DNA from: a bacterium | GTDB taxonomy: Bacteria > Campylobacterota > Campylobacteria > Campylobacterales > Sulfurimonadaceae | Direction: 5' to 3' | Assembly: GCA_018822665.1 (NCBI GenBank) | Contig: JAHJJX010000014.1 | Location: 62,001-126,000 of the forward strand | DNA length: 64,000 nucleotides | Shown here: positions 15,632 through 27,080 of the stretch, piece by piece | Layout: every line of letters starts with the position of its first letter | Numbering within the stretch: the stretch's first letter is position 1 | The notes under the pieces: generated by a model | What the model saw: only the letters and a program-made list of their open reading frames with translations | Told to the model about the DNA's origin: nothing | Database searches by the model: none | Position numbers and translations under genes: made by a program

Positions 15632-16405
15632 CTAAAGTCCTATCCTGCCGAGCTTAACGCTTATTTTCCCACTCAGTTCATACTCAAAAACTTTAGCCCC
15701 GTATTGTGCAACGGCCGCTTCATACCTTGGATTTGTCTTGCAGTATTCTAAAAATTCATCTTTTACACTCTCTTTTTGCTTAGCCTTTGTAAACTTGGCG
15801 ACAAATGCGTCAACGTCATGTATGCCCTTCGCAAATCCATTATAAAGCAGCCTATTCGTACCCTCGCTTTCACCTATTCTGTGAGGCAGCACATAAATCT
15901 CTTTGCCCATTTTTAAAGCATATTCTACACTTCGCATCGTTCCAGAACTTATATCTGCGTATGTCACGATAAGAACTTCTCCCAAAGCGACTATCAACTC
16001 GTTGCGAAGGGGGAAATGATATTTATTGGATGCAATGCCGCTTTGAAACTGACTGAGCACCAAACCCTCTTTTTCTATCTCTTGAATTATATTTTTATTG
16101 ATTGCAGGATATCTTGTATCTAGCCCTGTTCCAGCAACCATAATGGTATTACCCGCCCCAGCTGCTTTGTGAGATATTGCATCCACCCCAATGGCTCCGC
16201 CACTCACAATGCAAACTCCTGCTTGAGATAATTTGGATGCTATTTCATGTGAGAATTGTCTTGCGTATTGATTTGGCTTACGACTTCCGACTATGGAAAT
16301 TTTCGGTCTTCCCAATAACTCCGTCTTTCCTATATAAAACAGCTCTTTTGGGTACTTCTTCATTACATCAAGTTCCAAAATATGAAAGTCAACAGATTGA
16401 ATCAT
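15632..16405 (-). CDS. dprA: DNA-processing protein A (natural transformation)
   Basis: DprA protects incoming single-stranded DNA and loads RecA on it during transformation. The 257-residue product has the Rossmann core with ISIVGSRKPNQYARQFS near 38, CIVSGGAIGVDAISHKAA near 70, AGTGLDTRYPAINKNI near 95, and LPHRIGESEGTNRLLYNG near 175. The N-terminal SAM domain is absent and a short C-terminal winged-helix-like tail is present, as in other Campylobacterota. I start at the ATG at 16405 (GGAG six bases upstream) rather than four codons earlier. Its presence beside the many DUS-like repeats is evidence, not proof, of competence. Confidence 0.93.
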   Translation of the reverse strand: MIQSVDFHILELDVMKKYPKELFYIGKTELLGRPKISIVGSRKPNQYARQFSHEIASKLSQAGVCIVSGGAIGVDAISHKAAGAGNTIMVAGTGLDTRYPAINKNIIQEIEKEGLVLSQFQSGIASNKYHFPLRNELIVALGEVLIVTYADISSGTMRSVEYALKMGKEIYVLPHRIGESEGTNRLLYNGFAKGIHDVDAFVAKFTKAKQKESVKDEFLEYCKTNPRYEAAVAQYGAKVFEYELSGKISVKLGRIGL

Positions 16406-19140: not shown

Positions 19141-20856
19141 ATGCATTATATTTTAATCATCTTCTTCTTATTCTCATCGCTTCTACATTCCAAGCAGTCT
19201 GACTTTTCAATTATTATAGACAGGCCTTTTAATGATGCCTTGTTTGACATTACCGAAGACTATGACAGAGGTATGAGTGGTGTCGGATTTTCAAATAATT
19301 ATAAAACCTCTTCTTTTGCAAACAAACAAGCCTATACAGATGCTTTTGAATATCTTCAAAGTGTTTCAAATGCCAAGGGTTCACAAATGCATTTGCTCAA
19401 AGTAGACAATTCTGCAAATATCATTCTCAATAAAACAGCAAATCTTACACAATTCAATGAAGCAGTAGCCGTAGTGAAAACACCTTCAAACGGGTATTTT
19501 GTAGGAGGCTATACGCTCAACGGCTCGATTCTCATTTTACAACTTGATTCAAACGGAAATATTCTATTTTATAAAACTTTTGGCACAAAAAATTATGACA
19601 GACTAAGCAAGCTTGTTCAACTCAACGACGGAGGAGTATTGGCAGTCGGTTCTTCTGTCACATCAAGATCGCAACATGATAATTTATTTGAAACCGGACT
19701 TGGATTAAATGATATATACATCAGCAGATTTTCAAAAAATGGAAATCTGCTTTGGAGTAAAAAATATGGCACAGACTATGATGACATAGGGATAGATGCC
19801 GTAGAAGCTTTCGATGGCTCTATAATCGTAATAAGCACAACCAGCTATGATAACAATAAAAATCTTACCTTGATGAGAGTTACGGAAAATGGAGATAAAA
19901 TCTGGCTCAAGCACCATAGGGAAGATGAAAGAATAACTCCTCATAAAATCATAAAACTAAGAGATAATAATTTTCTCATCTCTCTTAGCTACGTAAACGA
20001 TATGAAAAAAGAGCAGATAAGGCTTATGAAATTTGATTTGCATAAGAATATTCTTCTTGACAACAAAATTTCCACCCAATACTCAAGCGTACTCAAGGAT
20101 ATAAAGGAATATTCAGATTCAAAACTTATCGGTGTTGGATATGTGAGAGATTCTTACAACACGGATGCGCTTGCTATGATATTCAATAGCGAACTCAATA
20201 TGCTTCATCAAGAACATTACGGGGAAGAAAATTTTGACGTATTTAATGCGGTGACTATTTTACATAATTCTCAGGCCGCTGCAGCCGGTATCCATACAAA
20301 TGAAAATTCGCAAGAATCCAATATGTGGATAGTAAAGCTCAATCGAGATGCAACGATTGCATCTAAGTCTTCAAAAGCATCAGATTTATTTATTGAGCTT
20401 TCCAAACTCTTTCAAGATGAAATACATTCCAGGGAACTCATAATCAAAAAGGATTTAAGCATAGAATTTGTGGATGCAATGCTCTATTTTGAAATTGGAG
20501 AGTACGCGCTAACAAGGATTCAAGAAGATTTTTTGATTCGATTTTCTAAAAAAATTATGCCTTTTTTGCAAACGCATCAAGAGCAAATAAGCACACTAGA
20601 GATTAATGGACATACATCCAGCGAATGGGGAAACAGTAATTTTACGAATACCTACCTCAAGAACGAAGAACTTTCCATGCGCCGTTCTTATGCAGTGCTC
20701 AGTTTTATATATCTCTCTCAAGAGAGGTCTCAGCAATTATTATTGTCAAAAATAATTAAAGGCAGCGGACTAAATTATTCTAAAAAGATTATAGTGAATA
20801 AAAAAGAAGATTTGCAAAAGTCAAGAAGGGTATCGTTTAAAATCATTTTAAATTAG
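19141..20856 (+). CDS. Exported protein with C-terminal OmpA-like domain
   Basis: 571 residues. A hydrophobic signal segment (about 2-17) is followed by repeated blocks of roughly 50-60 residues containing G-Y/G-T and D-x-x-G-N patterns (LDSNGNILFYKTFGT, FSKNGNLLWSKKYGT, VTENGDKIWLKHHR), which suggest a beta-propeller. The C-terminal ~130 residues resemble OmpA/MotB peptidoglycan-binding domains: LEINGHTSSEW, ELSMRRSYAVLSFI and SRRVSFKIIL. Likely periplasmic, attached to the cell wall, function unknown. No clear ribosome site and ~100 bases after rpsR, so probably its own unit. Confidence 0.7.
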   Translation: MHYILIIFFLFSSLLHSKQSDFSIIIDRPFNDALFDITEDYDRGMSGVGFSNNYKTSSFANKQAYTDAFEYLQSVSNAKGSQMHLLKVDNSANIILNKTANLTQFNEAVAVVKTPSNGYFVGGYTLNGSILILQLDSNGNILFYKTFGTKNYDRLSKLVQLNDGGVLAVGSSVTSRSQHDNLFETGLGLNDIYISRFSKNGNLLWSKKYGTDYDDIGIDAVEAFDGSIIVISTTSYDNNKNLTLMRVTENGDKIWLKHHREDERITPHKIIKLRDNNFLISLSYVNDMKKEQIRLMKFDLHKNILLDNKISTQYSSVLKDIKEYSDSKLIGVGYVRDSYNTDALAMIFNSELNMLHQEHYGEENFDVFNAVTILHNSQAAAAGIHTNENSQESNMWIVKLNRDATIASKSSKASDLFIELSKLFQDEIHSRELIIKKDLSIEFVDAMLYFEIGEYALTRIQEDFLIRFSKKIMPFLQTHQEQISTLEINGHTSSEWGNSNFTNTYLKNEELSMRRSYAVLSFIYLSQERSQQLLLSKIIKGSGLNYSKKIIVNKKEDLQKSRRVSFKIILN

Positions 20857-20880
20857 TTTCTGAAAAAATCAGAAACTAAT
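20852..20880. terminator. Bidirectional intrinsic terminator
   Basis: A 12-base perfect inverted repeat, ATTAGTTTCTGA (20852-20863) with TCAGAAACTAAT (20869-20880), around an AAAAA loop. It overlaps the TAG of the OmpA-like gene and sits before the stop of the convergent small-protein gene, so it can serve both. Confidence 0.7.
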
Positions 20881-20899
20881 AAGAGACATTATTTACGCA

Positions 20900-21238
20900 T
20901 TAACCACAAGATGGAACATCACCGTCAGAAGCATATTGCCAGCAAAAATCGTATAAATCATCAATATCTTTTTGTTTCATTTTTTCTATTTTTTTCGCAC
21001 CGCTTGGGCAAATTTCCTGCCATGCATTTAAAAGTTCTCCGCCTTCTTTTAACTCAGCCCATGTGCTACGGTCGTTTTTAGCAGCGAAATTAGCACCTGT
21101 TTTGAGACCATCTTTTTGACAAACTTTTAATTTTTTGAGATAATACTTTTGCCCTGATTTAGCGTCTGCCATAGCAGCTGTTGTAAATACAGAACCTGCA
21201 ACAATCGCAGATAATAATAATGAAGTCATTTTTTTCAT
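20900..21238 (-). CDS. Small exported four-cysteine protein
   Basis: 112 residues with a clear signal peptide (KKMTSLLLSAIVAGSVFTTAAMA, cleavage near residue 24). The mature ~88 residues are charged and hold four cysteines (near 40, 75, 99 and 111), with CWQYASDGDVPSCG at the end; spacing suggests two disulfides rather than haem, as no CxxCH is present. I do not recognise a named family. AAGGA precedes the ATG and a TATAAT box lies upstream, so it is probably monocistronic and could be well expressed. Confidence 0.7.
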   Translation of the reverse strand: MKKMTSLLLSAIVAGSVFTTAAMADAKSGQKYYLKKLKVCQKDGLKTGANFAAKNDRSTWAELKEGGELLNAWQEICPSGAKKIEKMKQKDIDDLYDFCWQYASDGDVPSCG

Positions 21239-21289
21239 TAGTTGTTCCTTGTGTGATAAGATTGTGATAGTCTACACATAAAATGATAA

Positions 21290-21295
21290 ATTATA
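21290..21295 (-). promoter_or_regulatory. Candidate -10 box for the small exported protein
   Basis: Minus-strand TATAAT about 52 bases before the ATG at 21238, in an A/T-rich region without a good -35. Confidence 0.5.
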
Positions 21296-21379
21296 GATTA
21301 ATCTTATACATTGAACAAATAATTTATCTTAATTTGCTACTATCTGCGTACTTTTAGAGAGTAACTGCAAATATAAATT

Positions 21380-21709
21380 TTACTCAAAATCAGCGTCAGA
21401 TTTTTTGGCCGAAGCCTGAAAAGAATATCGAAGCTTATCCTGTTTCATTTTTTTATAGAGCTTATTTTTAGCAACCAGCAGCCCTTCATCATCCAAAGAG
21501 AACTCTTTTTTCATTGCTTCGTTACTGATTCCTGCACTATCCATAGCATACAGTTTGAGTTCTTTTTTTGTAAGTTTTCTTTTTAAAACAGCGTACAACT
21601 CTTTTTCATCGTCTATGATTGTAAGAGGTTCAACTCCATAAAGACTACACAATTCTTCTCTTAAATTGTTCTCTTTATGGTATTGTCTCCAAACAGAATT
21701 TTCCAACAT
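21380..21709 (-). CDS. Conserved hypothetical protein with sigma-region-4-like helices
   Basis: 109 residues starting MLENSVWRQYHKENNLREEL. The start at 21709 has AGGAGA at a correct distance, eight bases after serB; a longer reading frame upstream has no ribosome site. Residues 50-95 (LTKKELKLYAMDSAGISNEA...LYKKMKQDK) resemble the helix-turn-helix of sigma factor region 4 in pattern, but there is no sigma region 2. Cytosolic, function unknown; coupling to serB suggests coexpression only. Confidence 0.6.
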   Translation of the reverse strand: MLENSVWRQYHKENNLREELCSLYGVEPLTIIDDEKELYAVLKRKLTKKELKLYAMDSAGISNEAMKKEFSLDDEGLLVAKNKLYKKMKQDKLRYSFQASAKKSDADFE

Positions 21710-21717
21710 ATAATCTC

Positions 21718-22347
21718 CTATATTTTCTTTAATATTTGTGTTAAATCTTTTGTCTCTATAACTATATTTGCTTCTTTTTTTAAAATCTCTTTTGCACAAA
21801 AAGCAACTCTGGTGTCGGCATGTGCAAACATTGACAAATCATTTGCGCCATCTCCGCACACAAGAGTTTCCTCTCTTGAAATACCTAAAATATTTTGCAG
21901 TCTCAACAGCATATCGCCTTTTGAATAATTAAACATCATGTCTCCGCCGACCAAACCGGTAAGCTTGCCATCCTTATGATGAAGAACGTTAGAGAAATCT
22001 GCATCATACCCGAGGATATCTTTTGCATAACCTGTAGCACTTCTAAAACCGCCGCTAAAACAAATAACTTTCATGCCTCTGTTTTTCATTTCTGCAATAG
22101 TCTCTTTTGCACCTTTCATATAAGGTAAATTCTGACTGATTTTTTCAACAACACTGTAATCAAGTCCTTTAAGCAGGCCAACTCTTTGCTGAAGAGATTC
22201 AAAAAAGTCAATTTTTCCGGCCATAGCCAATTCGGTTATACGGCTAACTTCTTCTCCTATTCCCAATTCAACAGCAAAAAAATCTACCGTTTCACCATCC
22301 ATAAGTGTTGAATCAAAATCAAAAACAGCCAATTTCAACATATACAT
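21718..22347 (-). CDS. serB: Phosphoserine phosphatase
   Basis: Final step of serine synthesis. HAD enzyme of 209 residues: AVFDFDSTLMDGETVDF gives the nucleophile Asp and general acid Asp, ICFSGGFRSATGYAKDIL the Ser motif and TLVCGDGANDLSMFAHAD the last acidic motif. ACT domains are absent, as in Campylobacter. The reading frame starts at 22347 or two codons later; neither has a clear ribosome site. Divergent from the methylenetetrahydrofolate reductase gene. Confidence 0.92.
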   Translation of the reverse strand: MYMLKLAVFDFDSTLMDGETVDFFAVELGIGEEVSRITELAMAGKIDFFESLQQRVGLLKGLDYSVVEKISQNLPYMKGAKETIAEMKNRGMKVICFSGGFRSATGYAKDILGYDADFSNVLHHKDGKLTGLVGGDMMFNYSKGDMLLRLQNILGISREETLVCGDGANDLSMFAHADTRVAFCAKEILKKEANIVIETKDLTQILKKI

Positions 22348-22361
22348 TACTCACTTTTTGT

Positions 22362-22367
22362 TATAAT
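22362..22367 (+). promoter_or_regulatory. Candidate promoter -10 for the MTHFR-family gene
   Basis: TATAAT preceded by CTTTTTGT, about 84 bases before the TTG start at 22451. It lies in the 103-base gap between divergent genes. Confidence 0.5.
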
Positions 22368-22450
22368 TACGGAATTATACCAACCCTAGCTAAAAACTTA
22401 ACAACTATGGCGCTAGATATACCCAACAATATTATTACTCAGGATTTTTT

Positions 22451-23362
22451 TTGTTTGAAACATTAATGGATAAATTAAAAAACGGCACGTTTATTACACT
22501 TGAAACCACCCCTTCACATTCTCCTGTGTTTTCTCCAATCATTGAAAAAATAGCAGCATTGGAGCTTGATAAATATGTGGACGGCTTTTCAACAACAGAC
22601 AATCCTCTTGCAAAACTTAAATACAACTCTTTGTTTGCCGCGAAGATGCTCCAAGACAGATTTAACAAACCTGTAATTGCGACAATGAGCATGAGAGACA
22701 GAAACCGTATAGCTTTACAATCGGATTTGCTTGGTGCAAATGAAGTGGATATCAGAGCCATACTAGCACTTACCGGTGACCCTGCAAATATATCCGACCA
22801 ACCAAATGCCAAAGGTGTTTTTGAATCTGACAGCTCACTTTTGCTTGACATGATTTCATGTTTCAACAGCGCAATTGATTTTGCGGGGAAACCTTTAGGT
22901 GCCAAACCACAGACAATCTACCCCTTTGCCGTTGTAAATTCCTACGCTAAAAATCCAAAAATACTTCAAAAAAAGATGCAAAAAAAGATAAACCACGGGG
23001 CATGTGGAATTATAACGCAGCCGGTCTATGACCTCGAAAGTGCAAAAAGACTGATAGAGCTCAAGGAAGCCGCAAACAAAGAGTGTTGTTCTGAAAATAG
23101 AAGCGCTGAACTCATTTTAGGTATTTTTCCTATTACAAAACTTCGCACGGCACAATTTTTATCTGCGCATGTTCCAGGTATCAATGTACCCAATAACTGG
23201 ATAGAATCCCTAAGAGTAGCAAATGAAAGAGGAGCGCAGGAGGAGTATAAAGTCGGATTTGAACTGAGTAAAAAACTTTTTGAAGAGTTAAAAGAGTTTC
23301 ATCCAAAAATACACCTCATGACTGCAAACCAATTTCAAATAGCAAAAGATATCCTCGCTTAA
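22451..23362 (+). CDS. Methylenetetrahydrofolate reductase family protein
   Basis: 303 residues, TIM-barrel flavoenzyme family that reduces 5,10-methylene-THF to 5-methyl-THF for methionine. LETTPSHSPVF holds the catalytic-type Glu near residue 20, followed by DGFSTTDNPLAK, TMSMRDRNRIALQSDLLGA, ILALTGDPAN and GACGIITQPVYD. The TTG at 22451 is preferred: AGGA lies six bases upstream, whereas the ATG five codons later has none. It may be metF or a paralogue working with a corrinoid methyltransferase; the ring motifs fit either, so I leave the symbol open. Ends at the DUS-built terminator. Confidence 0.8.
   Translation: MFETLMDKLKNGTFITLETTPSHSPVFSPIIEKIAALELDKYVDGFSTTDNPLAKLKYNSLFAAKMLQDRFNKPVIATMSMRDRNRIALQSDLLGANEVDIRAILALTGDPANISDQPNAKGVFESDSSLLLDMISCFNSAIDFAGKPLGAKPQTIYPFAVVNSYAKNPKILQKKMQKKINHGACGIITQPVYDLESAKRLIELKEAANKECCSENRSAELILGIFPITKLRTAQFLSAHVPGINVPNNWIESLRVANERGAQEEYKVGFELSKKLFEELKEFHPKIHLMTANQFQIAKDILA
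22999..23008 (+). repeat. DUS-like 10-mer, site 10
   Basis: In the MTHFR-family gene, encodes ACGII. Confidence 0.9.
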
Positions 23363-23365
23363 TCA

Positions 23366-23390
23366 AACTTCCACATGCCATGTGGAAGTT
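23366..23390. terminator. Bidirectional terminator built from an inverted DUS-like pair
   Basis: AACTTCCACATG (23366-23377), one central C, then CATGTGGAAGTT (23379-23390): a perfect 12-base inverted repeat. In RNA a nine-base stem with a seven-base loop is likely. It starts four bases after the plus-strand stop and covers the stop of the convergent minus-strand gene. It contains one exact 10-mer (minus) and a facing copy with one mismatch (23377-23386). Confidence 0.75.
23370..23379 (-). repeat. DUS-like 10-mer, site 11 (terminator half)
   Basis: Left arm of the inverted pair at 23366-23390; intergenic. Confidence 0.9.
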
Positions 23391-25131
23391 ACAATAACAC
23401 CTCCAATGCCTTAATATCCGCTATCTCCGGATTATCAATCTCTATATGTTTGTAGACAAGGTCTATATTTGTATTGACTAATATGCTCTGTAAAATATTT
23501 ATATATTTTTCAATCTCAATATGTTTTTTACTTAACATTATAAAATCATCTCCGTACAATCTAAAAATGAAGCTCTCTTTACAAGCATCGTCCAAAGTGC
23601 TTCCAAGTTGTTTAAGTAACTTATCCCCCTCTTCCCAACTGTACTTTTTATTGTATTGTGTAAAATTCTTCAAATAAATGCCGTATCCGCATTTAAATCT
23701 AAACTCATCCGTATAATTATATGCCATTACAAATTCTAAATAGTTTTTATTATAGACTCCCGTAACCTGATCTTTATAAAAATACGAAAATCTCTCTTTT
23801 TCCAATGTGCTTAACGGCCGCTGACTGATTGCCTCTTCCAAAACCACATTTTTTAATACCTTGCCTGCCGCATTGACAATCTGCGCATTAAACTGTTTTG
23901 AAGCGAGCTCTTGTAACTCTAAAATAGCCAGTCGAACACTTTTTTTTGCCTTATATATTCTATTTGTCGTCATCGCATCAAAAGCGTCCGCTACCGTCAT
24001 TATTTGGGACAATAGCGGAATCTCATCTGCCTTCAATCCATGCGGATAACCAGACCCGTCATAACGCTCATGATGGTAGTGGACAATCTCCGCTATATCT
24101 TTATAAACATCCACCTCTTTGAGCAACTCATAACTTACAACAACATGTTCTTGAATTATTTTATATTCTAATTCAGAAAGCTTGCCTGGCTTTAAAAGGA
24201 TTGAATCGGGTGTTGAAACTTTCCCTATATCGTGCAGCATGCAGGCTCTGTAGAGTTCGTCTATCTTTTCTTCATTAAATCCCATCTCTTTTGCAATTAA
24301 GACAGAATATTTGGCAACCCTTTGTGTATGACCAGCCGTATAGCTGTCTCTTTTTTCTATAACATTCACCAAAGAAAATAAATGCTGTTCATAATCTTTT
24401 ATTTTATTTTCAAATGCCTCTTTAATTTTTTTCCTGCTATACAAGATAACACCCATTCCGATAAGCCAGATAAAGCCTATGACCGCACAATTTAAAACTG
24501 AATGTGAGAAGGCATCTTTATAGTATTTGCTCATTGGGATGGAGACTGAAACAGCACCTCGAATATCCCCTACTTTATAACCCTGATGTTGATGACATTT
24601 TAGACAGGATGTTTCTGTTATAAGAGGATTTAAATAACGAAAATATTCCTCATTGCCTATCAATGACTTCTCATAAAATGGTTTACGTGTTTTTTCAATA
24701 ATATCTAAAGCTTTATCTTCCCAAGCATCAGGTTTATTATTTGGATTTAATAATTTTTTACTGGTAATATGCCCTTTGTTTCCATATAAACTAGAATACT
24801 TACTCATCATCTGAGAAAGCATGTACGCCCCATTCATAAGGGTCAATCTTTGATTGTCTGTTGTGTTGACATCACGATTTTTAAGATGCGCAAGATAAGG
24901 ATTTGGAGGTGTGGTTTCAGTGATTGGAACATAAACTCCGCCGTGAGAAGCACCCCACGACCTATATGCAAGGTCTTTATTTATACTGATAAATGCTTCA
25001 TTTTTTGCCAATGCACCTGCATAACCGTAGTTTTCAAATACAAAAGTCAAAGCGACAAGCAACATCACCACGCTCCAACTTACGATAGACATAAAAAAGA
25101 TTTTATTAATAAAATGTTTCCTGAAACCCAT
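23389..25131 (-). CDS. Haem-c sensor / HD-GYP / degenerate GGDEF protein
   Basis: 580 residues. Membrane helix near 10-32; periplasmic DUF3365 (Tll0287-like) domain with RSWGASHGGVYVPITET and a haem-c site CLKCH near 176; second membrane helix near 218-238; HD-GYP domain (about 255-420) with HTQRVAKYS, HDIGKVSTPDS, HHERYDGSGYPHG, all catalytic residues present, so a c-di-GMP phosphodiesterase; C-terminal GGDEF-like domain with RLYGDDF in place of GG[DE]EF and therefore probably not a cyclase. Start ATG at 25131 has AAGG six bases upstream. Could couple redox state or a small ligand on haem to c-di-GMP breakdown (inference). Confidence 0.85.
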   Translation of the reverse strand: MGFRKHFINKIFFMSIVSWSVVMLLVALTFVFENYGYAGALAKNEAFISINKDLAYRSWGASHGGVYVPITETTPPNPYLAHLKNRDVNTTDNQRLTLMNGAYMLSQMMSKYSSLYGNKGHITSKKLLNPNNKPDAWEDKALDIIEKTRKPFYEKSLIGNEEYFRYLNPLITETSCLKCHQHQGYKVGDIRGAVSVSIPMSKYYKDAFSHSVLNCAVIGFIWLIGMGVILYSRKKIKEAFENKIKDYEQHLFSLVNVIEKRDSYTAGHTQRVAKYSVLIAKEMGFNEEKIDELYRACMLHDIGKVSTPDSILLKPGKLSELEYKIIQEHVVVSYELLKEVDVYKDIAEIVHYHHERYDGSGYPHGLKADEIPLLSQIMTVADAFDAMTTNRIYKAKKSVRLAILELQELASKQFNAQIVNAAGKVLKNVVLEEAISQRPLSTLEKERFSYFYKDQVTGVYNKNYLEFVMAYNYTDEFRFKCGYGIYLKNFTQYNKKYSWEEGDKLLKQLGSTLDDACKESFIFRLYGDDFIMLSKKHIEIEKYINILQSILVNTNIDLVYKHIEIDNPEIADIKALEVLL

Positions 25132-25148
25132 GTGCAACCTTTGAAGTC

Positions 25149-25154
25149 ATTATA
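25149..25154 (-). promoter_or_regulatory. Candidate -10 box of the haem-HD-GYP gene
   Basis: Minus-strand TATAAT in context TGCACTATAATG, 18 bases before the ATG. Confidence 0.5.
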
Positions 25155-25197
25155 GTGCAAGAAATATTAAGAATTTATTTCCTTATACTTATACCTT

Positions 25198-25207
25198 GGC
25201 ATGTGGA
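25198..25207 (+). repeat. DUS-like 10-mer, site 12
   Basis: Intergenic, between the divergent promoters of the haem-HD-GYP gene and serS. Flanked TT-site-ATTG. Confidence 0.9.
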
Positions 25208-25227
25208 ATTGCTTTATCATATTTTGA

Positions 25228-25233
25228 TATAAT
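25228..25233 (+). promoter_or_regulatory. serS promoter -10 box
   Basis: TATAAT in context TTTTGATATAATC, an extended -10 form favoured in Campylobacterota, 27 bases before the serS ATG with AGGA between. Confidence 0.6.
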
Positions 25234-25259
25234 CTCACCACTTATTTTTTAGGAAAATT

Positions 25260-26510
25260 ATGATTGATTTAAAATTATTGCAAAAAGAGTTTGATACGGT
25301 GAGTAAAAAACTCACCAGAAAAGGTGTCGATGCTGCACTCATTGAGAGTTTAAAAAATAAAAACGAAGAACTCAAAGTTGCTAAAGTGGCTTATGAAACT
25401 CTTCAAGCAGCCCAAAACAGTATGAGCAAGGAGTTTGGCATCTTTATGAGAGAGAAAAAAGATGTAACGCAGCTCAAACAAAAAGTGGATGAAAATAAAG
25501 TAAAAATTACCGAGGCACTTGAAGTTCAAAGAATTTGTCAAGAAGAGCTGGAAAATATTGCTATGTCCGTCCCAAATATCCCTGATGACAATGTTCCCGA
25601 TGGTGTGGATGAGAATGACAATATTGAAATAAAAAAAGTTCTCACTCCAAGAACTTTTAAATTTACTCCAAAAGAGCATTGGGAGCTTGCAGAACAAAAT
25701 GGCTGGATAGACTTTGAAAAAGGTGTCAAATTGGCAACGAGCCGTTTTTGTGTCGTGTACGGAAATGGCGCAAAACTCGAACGTGCACTTATCAATTTCA
25801 TGTTAAATTTCAATTCTTCAAGAGGTTTTGTGGAAGTAAGCGTTCCTGCTCTGGTAAACCGTAGAGCCTTGGAGGGAACGGGTCAGCTCCCAAAATTTGA
25901 AGATGATCTTTATAAAATTGACGCACAAGACCTTTTTTTAATCCCAACAGCAGAAGTACCTCTTACAAATCTGTTTCAAGATGAAATACTTTCTCTGGAC
26001 GATTTACCCATAAAAATGACAGGTTACACCGCATGCTTTAGAAAAGAAGCGGGTGCGGCAGGACGCGATACAAGGGGAATGATACGACAGCATCAGTTTC
26101 ACAAGGTAGAACTCGTGGCAATTTCCACTCCGGATGAAAGCGACATCATTTTTGATGAGATGCTTGCGTGTGCTTCAGACATTTTGACCGCACTTGAACT
26201 TCCTCACCGACTTGTTACTTTATGTACGGGAGATTTAGGTTTTGGAGCGGCTAAAACAGTAGATATCGAAGTGTGGCTCCCGGGTCAAGCTACTTACCGT
26301 GAAATCTCTTCTGTTTCAAATACAAGAGATTTTCAAGCACGTCGCGCAAAAATCCGTTTCAAAGACGGCAAACAAAACACATTCGTTCATACCCTTAACG
26401 GCTCTTCTTTGGCTGTTGGAAGAACAATGGTAGCCATTATGGAGAACTTTCAAAATGAAGATGGAAGCATAGATATTCCTGAGGTTTTAAAACCTTATAT
26501 GGGGATGTAG
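25260..26510 (+). CDS. serS: Seryl-tRNA synthetase
   Basis: 416 residues. Long antiparallel coiled-coil tRNA-binding arm (about 25-105) and class II catalytic core with [10 protein letters not shown], motif 2 [20 protein letters not shown] and motif 3 [21 protein letters not shown] precedes the ATG. In C. jejuni, as I recall it, serS is directly followed by the pflB TPR gene; here the two are separated by 1.8 kb of inserted material. Confidence 0.97.
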
Positions 26511-26522
26511 ACTTCTTCGTTT

Positions 26523-26557
26523 AGCATGAATAGGCATTTTAACTGCCTATATATGCT
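26523..26557 (+). terminator. Candidate hairpin after serS
   Basis: ATAGGCA (26530-26536) pairs with TGCCTAT (26544-26550), flanked by AGCAT (26523-26527) and ATGCT (26553-26557) across a small internal loop. It starts 13 bases after the serS stop; no clear T tract. Confidence 0.45.
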
Positions 26558-26661
26558 GCCATCTTTATAATGGGTTTTAGAAAAAAGTTATTTATTTATA
26601 ATTTCTTCTATATCCATCAAAAAACAAACTAAGAAAACGGTAATTACTAGAAGGTAGCTAA

Positions 26662-26975
26662 AAAGTTGCTAAAATCTTAAACAGACACCCTAAGTTTGTA
26701 GGCAAGTGGTTAAAGACTTATAAAGCATTTGTTTCAGATGTTTCTCAGTACAACCGGTCTCTCAAAAGTACAAAAGCCATCTATAAGGGCTATAAATATT
26801 GAACTTTGGTTTACACCGCCCTATACACCTGAATTCAACCCTATCAAAAGAGTATGGAGTTTCATGAAATCTATGCTGCAGTTTGATTTAGGATGGATAT
26901 AAAACACATATAAATGTTATTTTTGATAAACTTAAAGCATTAATGGAAGCTGGAAAGAAAAATGGCATAAGTAAA
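26662..26975 (+). pseudogene. Remnant of an IS630-type transposase
   Basis: The gap 26511-27080 has no intact gene. From 26662 one frame reads KVAKILNRHPKFVGKWLKTYKAF, cited as KVAKILNRHP followed by KFVGKWLKTY, an N-terminal helix-turn-helix of IS630/Tc1 type, ending at a stop near 26799. In another frame 26795-26902 reads ELWFTPPYTPEFNPIKRVW then a stop; PPYTPEFNPI-RVW is the C-terminal DDE block of IS630 transposases, with Lys where the catalytic Glu is expected. The catalytic middle is missing and a third frame (to about 26975) may hold the very end. Clearly dead; no terminal inverted repeats identified by eye. Confidence 0.75.
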
Positions 26976-27080
26976 TATATTCACTATAAATTCTTGTATG
27001 TGCATTGTTTATTACAAATTAATCGAGTATCTCTAAGCCTTTAGCAGACGCTTGTTACAACGGAGGATTCACTCAGTACC

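Follow-up and report, generated by a model that had tools for sequence, protein, structure and literature searches.

Inverted pairs of a putative uptake-sequence-like 10-mer give hairpins without U-tracts at gene ends in a Sulfurimonas lineage

When two convergent genes are separated by little more than a perfect inverted repeat, and each arm of that repeat contains a copy of the same abundant genomic word, one may ask what the repeat does at the ends of both transcripts and why the word should be paired there at all. This question is raised by a locus in a 64-kb stretch of bacterial DNA (referred to below as the window), which comes from a genome that, as judged by seryl-tRNA synthetase, has its closest named relatives in Sulfurimonas and Sulfuricurvum (Campylobacterota). 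An MTHFR-family gene on the forward strand (22451-23362; PF02219, E 3e-24) and a haem-type HD-GYP gene on the reverse strand (23389-25137; Tll0287-like, HD and GGDEF domains according to Pfam) converge at positions 23366-23390, where the first-pass annotation placed a terminator composed of paired DNA uptake sequences (DUS).

The structural part of that description was borne out. The site consists of AACTTCCACATG-C-CATGTGGAAGTT, a perfect inverted repeat with 12-nt arms (23366-23377 and 23379-23390) around a 1-nt centre (23378), and its context reads taa (23360-62), tca, the repeat itself and aca. It does lie between the ends of the two genes, since the open reading frames terminate at 23362 and 23389 and Pfam agrees with both assignments; 3 nt separate the MTHFR-family stop codon from the left arm, and the right arm shares 2 nt with the stop codon of the HD-GYP gene. 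As had been claimed, one arm holds the DUS-like motif and the other its copy with one mismatch. The exact 10-mer, TCCACATGCC, occupies the left arm plus the centre (23370-23379, forward strand), and its mate in the right arm, TCCACATGGC (23377-23386, reverse strand), is changed at position 9 and retains the inner core CACATG. Variants of the 10-mer with G at position 9 are tolerated (5 seen versus 0.8 expected). The nearest other copy is unpaired and lies within the MTHFR-family gene (22999-23008, reverse strand), and a further unpaired copy is found between the HD-GYP gene and serS (25198-25207, reverse strand).

Transcribed from either strand, the site is predicted to form a hairpin with 11 bp in the stem and 3 nt (GCC or GGC) in the loop, and the fold of the forward-strand RNA has a calculated energy of -13.9 kcal/mol (z -4.5). 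Throughout the window there are two perfect inverted repeats with arms of at least 12 nt and a loop of up to 8 nt; only the one at 23366-23390 has 5 G/C per arm, the other being AT-richer, and five first-order resamples of the window yielded no repeat with this arm G+C. A search of the Rfam families gave no match across 20000-27000 at E ≤ 1. The arms depart from the consensus in a matching way at the second position of the flank, with C opposite G, so that the pairing is kept.

The motif itself is the most over-represented 10-mer of the window, with 20 copies versus 0.05 expected. Genome-wide (2.5 Mb) it occurs 859 times, 437 times on the forward and 422 times on the reverse strand, as compared with 2 occurrences of the reversed control. 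Copies with a single mismatch are enriched when the change is at position 1, 2, 9 or 10, and are absent or at background level when it is at positions 3-8, which make up the core CACATG; a protein that reads the core would be expected to leave such a pattern of a rigid core with tolerant edges. Beyond the 10-mer the consensus extends to A-A/T-T-TCCACATGCC-A-A-G, and the flanking columns reach background beyond about 3 nt. The scan of viral contigs gave one motif match per stretch.

Copy number and a rigid core would suit any sequence-reading protein, and the 10-mer might in principle be another genome-wide signal, such as a Chi- or KOPS-like element, a dispersed mobile repeat, or a binding site of a nucleoid or regulatory protein. 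We consider this quite unlikely. An oriented signal of the Chi or KOPS type was rejected because strand polarity is lacking, 162 of 346 copies being located on the G-rich strand, so that orientation is independent of GC skew. A mobile repeat of the REP or MITE type was rejected because conservation fades within about 3 nt of the core. The presence of 205 of 310 sampled copies within genes argues against a regulator, and the species-specific dialects around a common core, described below, are a hallmark of DUS and USS. Gene-end pairs in inverted orientation likewise typify DUS and USS; to our knowledge, Chi, KOPS and mobile repeats do not share this trait. The sampled stretches of this genome were picked around pairs, which inflates the intergenic share of all copies in the sample (34%), and the rates for single copies were thus taken from unpaired copies only; 190 of these are coding and 31 intergenic, i.e. 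14% are intergenic, with intergenic DNA accounting for 7.3% of bases. At two loci (L123, 5079-5159, and L124, 4361-4422), four to five copies of the motif were also observed in tandem with an 18-19-nt period; one array is intergenic and the other lies within a gene.

Is the pair at 23366-23390 an isolated case? In the whole genome we found 44 close inverted pairs, of which 16 have the orientation of this site (TCCACATG-N(0-12)-CATGTGGA) and 28 the opposite one (CATGTGGA-N(0-20)-TCCACATG), versus about 4 expected by chance as estimated from copy density. Of direct pairs no more than 20 nt apart there are 13, distributed over 8 loci; several are 18-19-nt tandem arrays. When genes were called with a simple caller on 773 kb of stretches from this genome and on the window, 37 of the 44 inverted pairs proved to be intergenic, 6 coding, and 1 was located at the edge of a stretch. 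The intergenic pairs comprise 21 between convergent genes, 14 between genes of the same direction and 2 between divergent genes. Pairs are split 37:6 between intergenic and coding positions and unpaired copies 31:190, which gives an odds ratio of 38 (p 3e-20), and convergent gaps make up 10% of intergenic bases, yet hold 21 of the 37 pairs (p 4e-12). Among the same-direction pairs, 12 of 14 lie no further than 43 nt past the upstream stop codon. In four related genomes (G166, G167, G169 and G170) almost every intergenic pair is situated about 50 nt or less past a stop codon and none is divergent, with the reservation that some of these pairs may be orthologous; the arms in G166 carry that genome's own dialect, TTCACATG. 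The first-pass annotation had named the absence of other inverted pairs at gene ends as a result that would speak against it; given the 37 intergenic pairs, 21 of them convergent, and the four relatives, the opposite was found.

One should ask at this point whether the hairpin plays any role in RNA. Tags might simply pile up where they are least harmful, short gaps at gene ends being able to take two copies, and the symmetry of the arms might be due to template switching or chance. It is true that unpaired intergenic copies lean towards convergent gaps as well (11 of 31), and that convergence alone does not distinguish pairs from unpaired intergenic copies significantly (p 0.09), so that placement may partly reflect where copies are tolerated. 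Perfect complementarity of the arms can also result from template switching rather than from selection. However, such an account predicts equal numbers of direct and inverted pairs, whereas 37 inverted and about 5 direct loci are intergenic. Furthermore, the same-direction pairs cluster at 4-43 nt past the stop codon, whereas unpaired copies within gaps of that kind are scattered throughout the gap. Beyond the motif, complementarity between the flanks of the arms is commoner than between those of shuffled partners (49 versus 35, for tail-to-tail pairs at position 2). Hairpins unrelated to the motif are also enriched at gene ends, being present at 32% of convergent ends versus 0.5% in shuffles (motif-free hairpins, loci L081-L120), so that the motif pairs join a wider tendency of this genome towards hairpins at gene ends. 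Under half of the motif-free gene-end hairpins have a U-rich stretch behind them.

The same junction in related bacteria bears on this point too. The convergent order of the MTHFR and HD-GYP genes is shared by four motif-free relatives (L040, L042, L043 and L061), in which no comparable hairpin lies between the two genes, as would be expected if the structure had no function in RNA; the hairpin is, at any rate, unnecessary for the gene order. In L044, where serS directly follows the MTHFR gene, an inverted pair of its own is located behind the latter (-19.3 kcal/mol), and in L002 a hairpin behind the MTHFR gene contains one motif copy. The comparison thus makes the hairpin a trait of motif-bearing lineages. 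With the evidence from both sides taken into account, we regard a hairpin devoid of any RNA role as unlikely.

If the hairpin does act in RNA, one candidate is a conventional bidirectional Rho-independent terminator formed by two uptake sequences, as in Neisseria. A stable GC-containing hairpin is indeed found directly past both stop codons, and the placement of pairs resembles that tabulated for Neisseria, with tail-to-tail positions favoured and head-to-head ones rare (PMC1852404). On the HD-GYP side, where the tail is TGATTAAGCG, the nucleotides past the core, AGTTTGATTAAG, are weakly U-rich. However, the tail that follows the full stem on the MTHFR side, ACAATAACAC, has 1 T in 10, and the hairpins of the pairs in this genome have, as a class, A-rich tails with a mean of 2.7 T per next 10 nt (5 T in 8 in 16% of them). 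Other hairpins at gene ends are richer in T (4.4 T, 43%), and so are gene ends that have no hairpin (3.8 T, 37%). A U-tract after the pair hairpins is lacking both in this genome and in the four relatives. With A-rich tails and no U-tract, the defining feature of an intrinsic terminator is missing, and the classic U-tailed terminator was rejected as a reading of the class. In Neisseria, the pairs favour the orientation in which the extended motif provides A- and T-tails, and the tails match gene direction (PMC1852404), whereas a strong preference for the tail-giving orientation is found neither in this genome (16 versus 28) nor in G166 (27 versus 29). A simple consensus terminator scan did not include 23366-23390 among its predictions. 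A terminator of the Neisseria type is, in our opinion, improbable. Hence, what remains of the proposal that the repeat forms a terminator is a hairpin at gene ends; the U-tract, the prediction by the scan and the Neisseria-type bias in orientation did not materialize.

The explanation that we favour, and judge moderately probable from sequence comparison, is that a DUS-like tag provides inverted pairs which are kept at the 3' ends of mRNAs as U-less hairpins, serving as protectors or U-independent terminators. According to this explanation, this Sulfurimonas lineage would have in TCCACATGCC a genome tag akin to DNA uptake sequences; the tag would be read by the competence machinery on incoming DNA and would accumulate by biased uptake and recombination. 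Two copies placed head-to-head within about 20 nt would give a transcript hairpin of about 8-12 bp, and such pairs would be retained almost only just past stop codons, chiefly between convergent genes. The single hairpin at 23366-23390 could then serve the MTHFR and HD-GYP transcripts alike, as a two-sided 3'-end RNA structure which would shield ends produced by Rho-dependent termination or by processing from 3'-to-5' decay; alternatively, it might stop the polymerase without a U-tract. U-less termination and ProQ-like protection of the 3' end appear to be the two likeliest mechanisms.

As to the former, U-less 'I-shaped' gene-end hairpins resemble those of Sulfurimonas in being located just past the stop codon with no poly-U trail, and PMC8355165 cites U-less terminators from H. 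pylori, which belongs to the phylum of Sulfurimonas. What sets the Sulfurimonas hairpins apart is that each arm is a copy of a tag found throughout the genome, in the dialect of the species. As to the latter, meningococcal ProQ binds 3'UTR hairpins including DUS, and PNPase protection was reported for a ProQ-bound mRNA (PMC7272453). Hairpins of an uptake motif in 3'UTRs can thus be bound by an RNA-binding protein in meningococcus. If the favoured explanation is true, it would help to untangle two ideas about Neisseria, namely that pairs exist as T-tailed terminators and that mRNA 3'-end hairpins are useful in themselves.

The motif takes several forms among the relatives, TCCACATGCC, TTCACATGCC and NCCACATGCC, of which TTCACATGCC is the dialect of L008 (genome G166). 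The word CACATGCC is present in more than 100 copies, mostly in hundreds, in about 19 of 135 genomes of the genus, and in about 20 copies in the others. In genomes without an excess of CACATGCC, a palindromic 10-mer, TTACATGTAA, reaches 100-425 copies per genome over a background of about 5 (G079, G011, G090, G126, G044, G034 and others; loci L052, L054, L067 and L076), and high numbers of TTACATGTAA and CACATGCC are mutually exclusive between genomes. From the common ACATG we infer that TTACATGTAA may represent a further dialect. In the seryl-tRNA synthetase tree, the genomes rich in CACATGCC or in TTACATGTAA are clustered, yet do not form single clades. A different word, CTGCGTTTA, is over-represented in relatives without the CACATG motif (L004, L005, L040 and L042), with 4-7 copies per 15-21 kb versus about 0.03 expected for 10-mers; this word may belong to another tag or to a repeat in coding sequence.

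Neisseriaceae and Pasteurellaceae were described in 2025 as the sole families known for recognition of self-DNA by short tags (PMC12616744), and a search of open-licence papers yielded none on uptake sequences in Campylobacterota. The Neisseriaceae DUS, GCCGTCTGAA, and the Sulfurimonas motif are both non-palindromic sequences of about 10 nt, present on both strands in hundreds to thousands of copies, with extended flanks, an invariant inner core and tolerant edges; both form dialects between species (PMC12616744) and inverted pairs in convergent gaps and just past stop codons (PMC1852404). About 1,900 DUS copies are present in N. meningitidis, and 231 pairs in Z2491 (PMC1852404). In contrast, the Sulfurimonas motif, which is unrelated and comes from another phylum, is sparser (859 copies in 2.5 Mb, 44 pairs), its pairs have neither a U-tail nor a strong orientation preference, and its role in uptake is putative. 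The Pasteurellaceae USS, AAGTGCGGT, is similarly a high-copy sequence with dialects and a rigid core, and USS pairs occur in presumed terminators (PMC1852404); the Sulfurimonas motif differs from it in sequence, belongs to an unrelated lineage and has no long AT-rich extension, and its hairpins are devoid of T-tails. We find it fairly probable that Sulfurimonas evolved a third, independent DUS system, whose dialects, at least three in number, share an ACATG core. As in Neisseria and Haemophilus, inverted pairs of the tag would have become RNA structures at gene ends, in this case without U-tails, so that the pairing itself would be kept rather than the supply of tails. If this is true, uptake tags would be present in a third, distant lineage, that of free-living sulfur oxidisers, which would mean that the trait evolves repeatedly, and many natural dialects would be at hand for finding the receptor.

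The function of the motif in DNA uptake is what we infer from the shape of these data. The pair at 23366-23390 had been taken as independent support for the DUS interpretation; its arrangement does match a known companion trait of DUS, and is not a test of uptake. Among components of the machinery, ComEC is encoded at G000:C24:17003 of this genome, a DprA-family gene (about 15827-16372, reverse strand) is located in the same window as the hairpin, and the genome also has type II-like pseudopilin genes. DprA is a hallmark of natural transformation. ComEC, DprA and pseudopilins were also found in relatives without the motif, and therefore the machinery does not discriminate motif-bearing genomes. 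A type II secretion-like cluster of this genome includes four pseudopilin genes (L226, 5036-15193; G000:C26); this four-gene layout was observed in several motif-bearing relatives and in G009, and not in the motif-free G083 and G084. A trio of pseudopilin genes is located about 10 kb from comEC (L231, 6525-8010; G000:C24). These two pseudopilin clusters are a possible place to look for the receptor.
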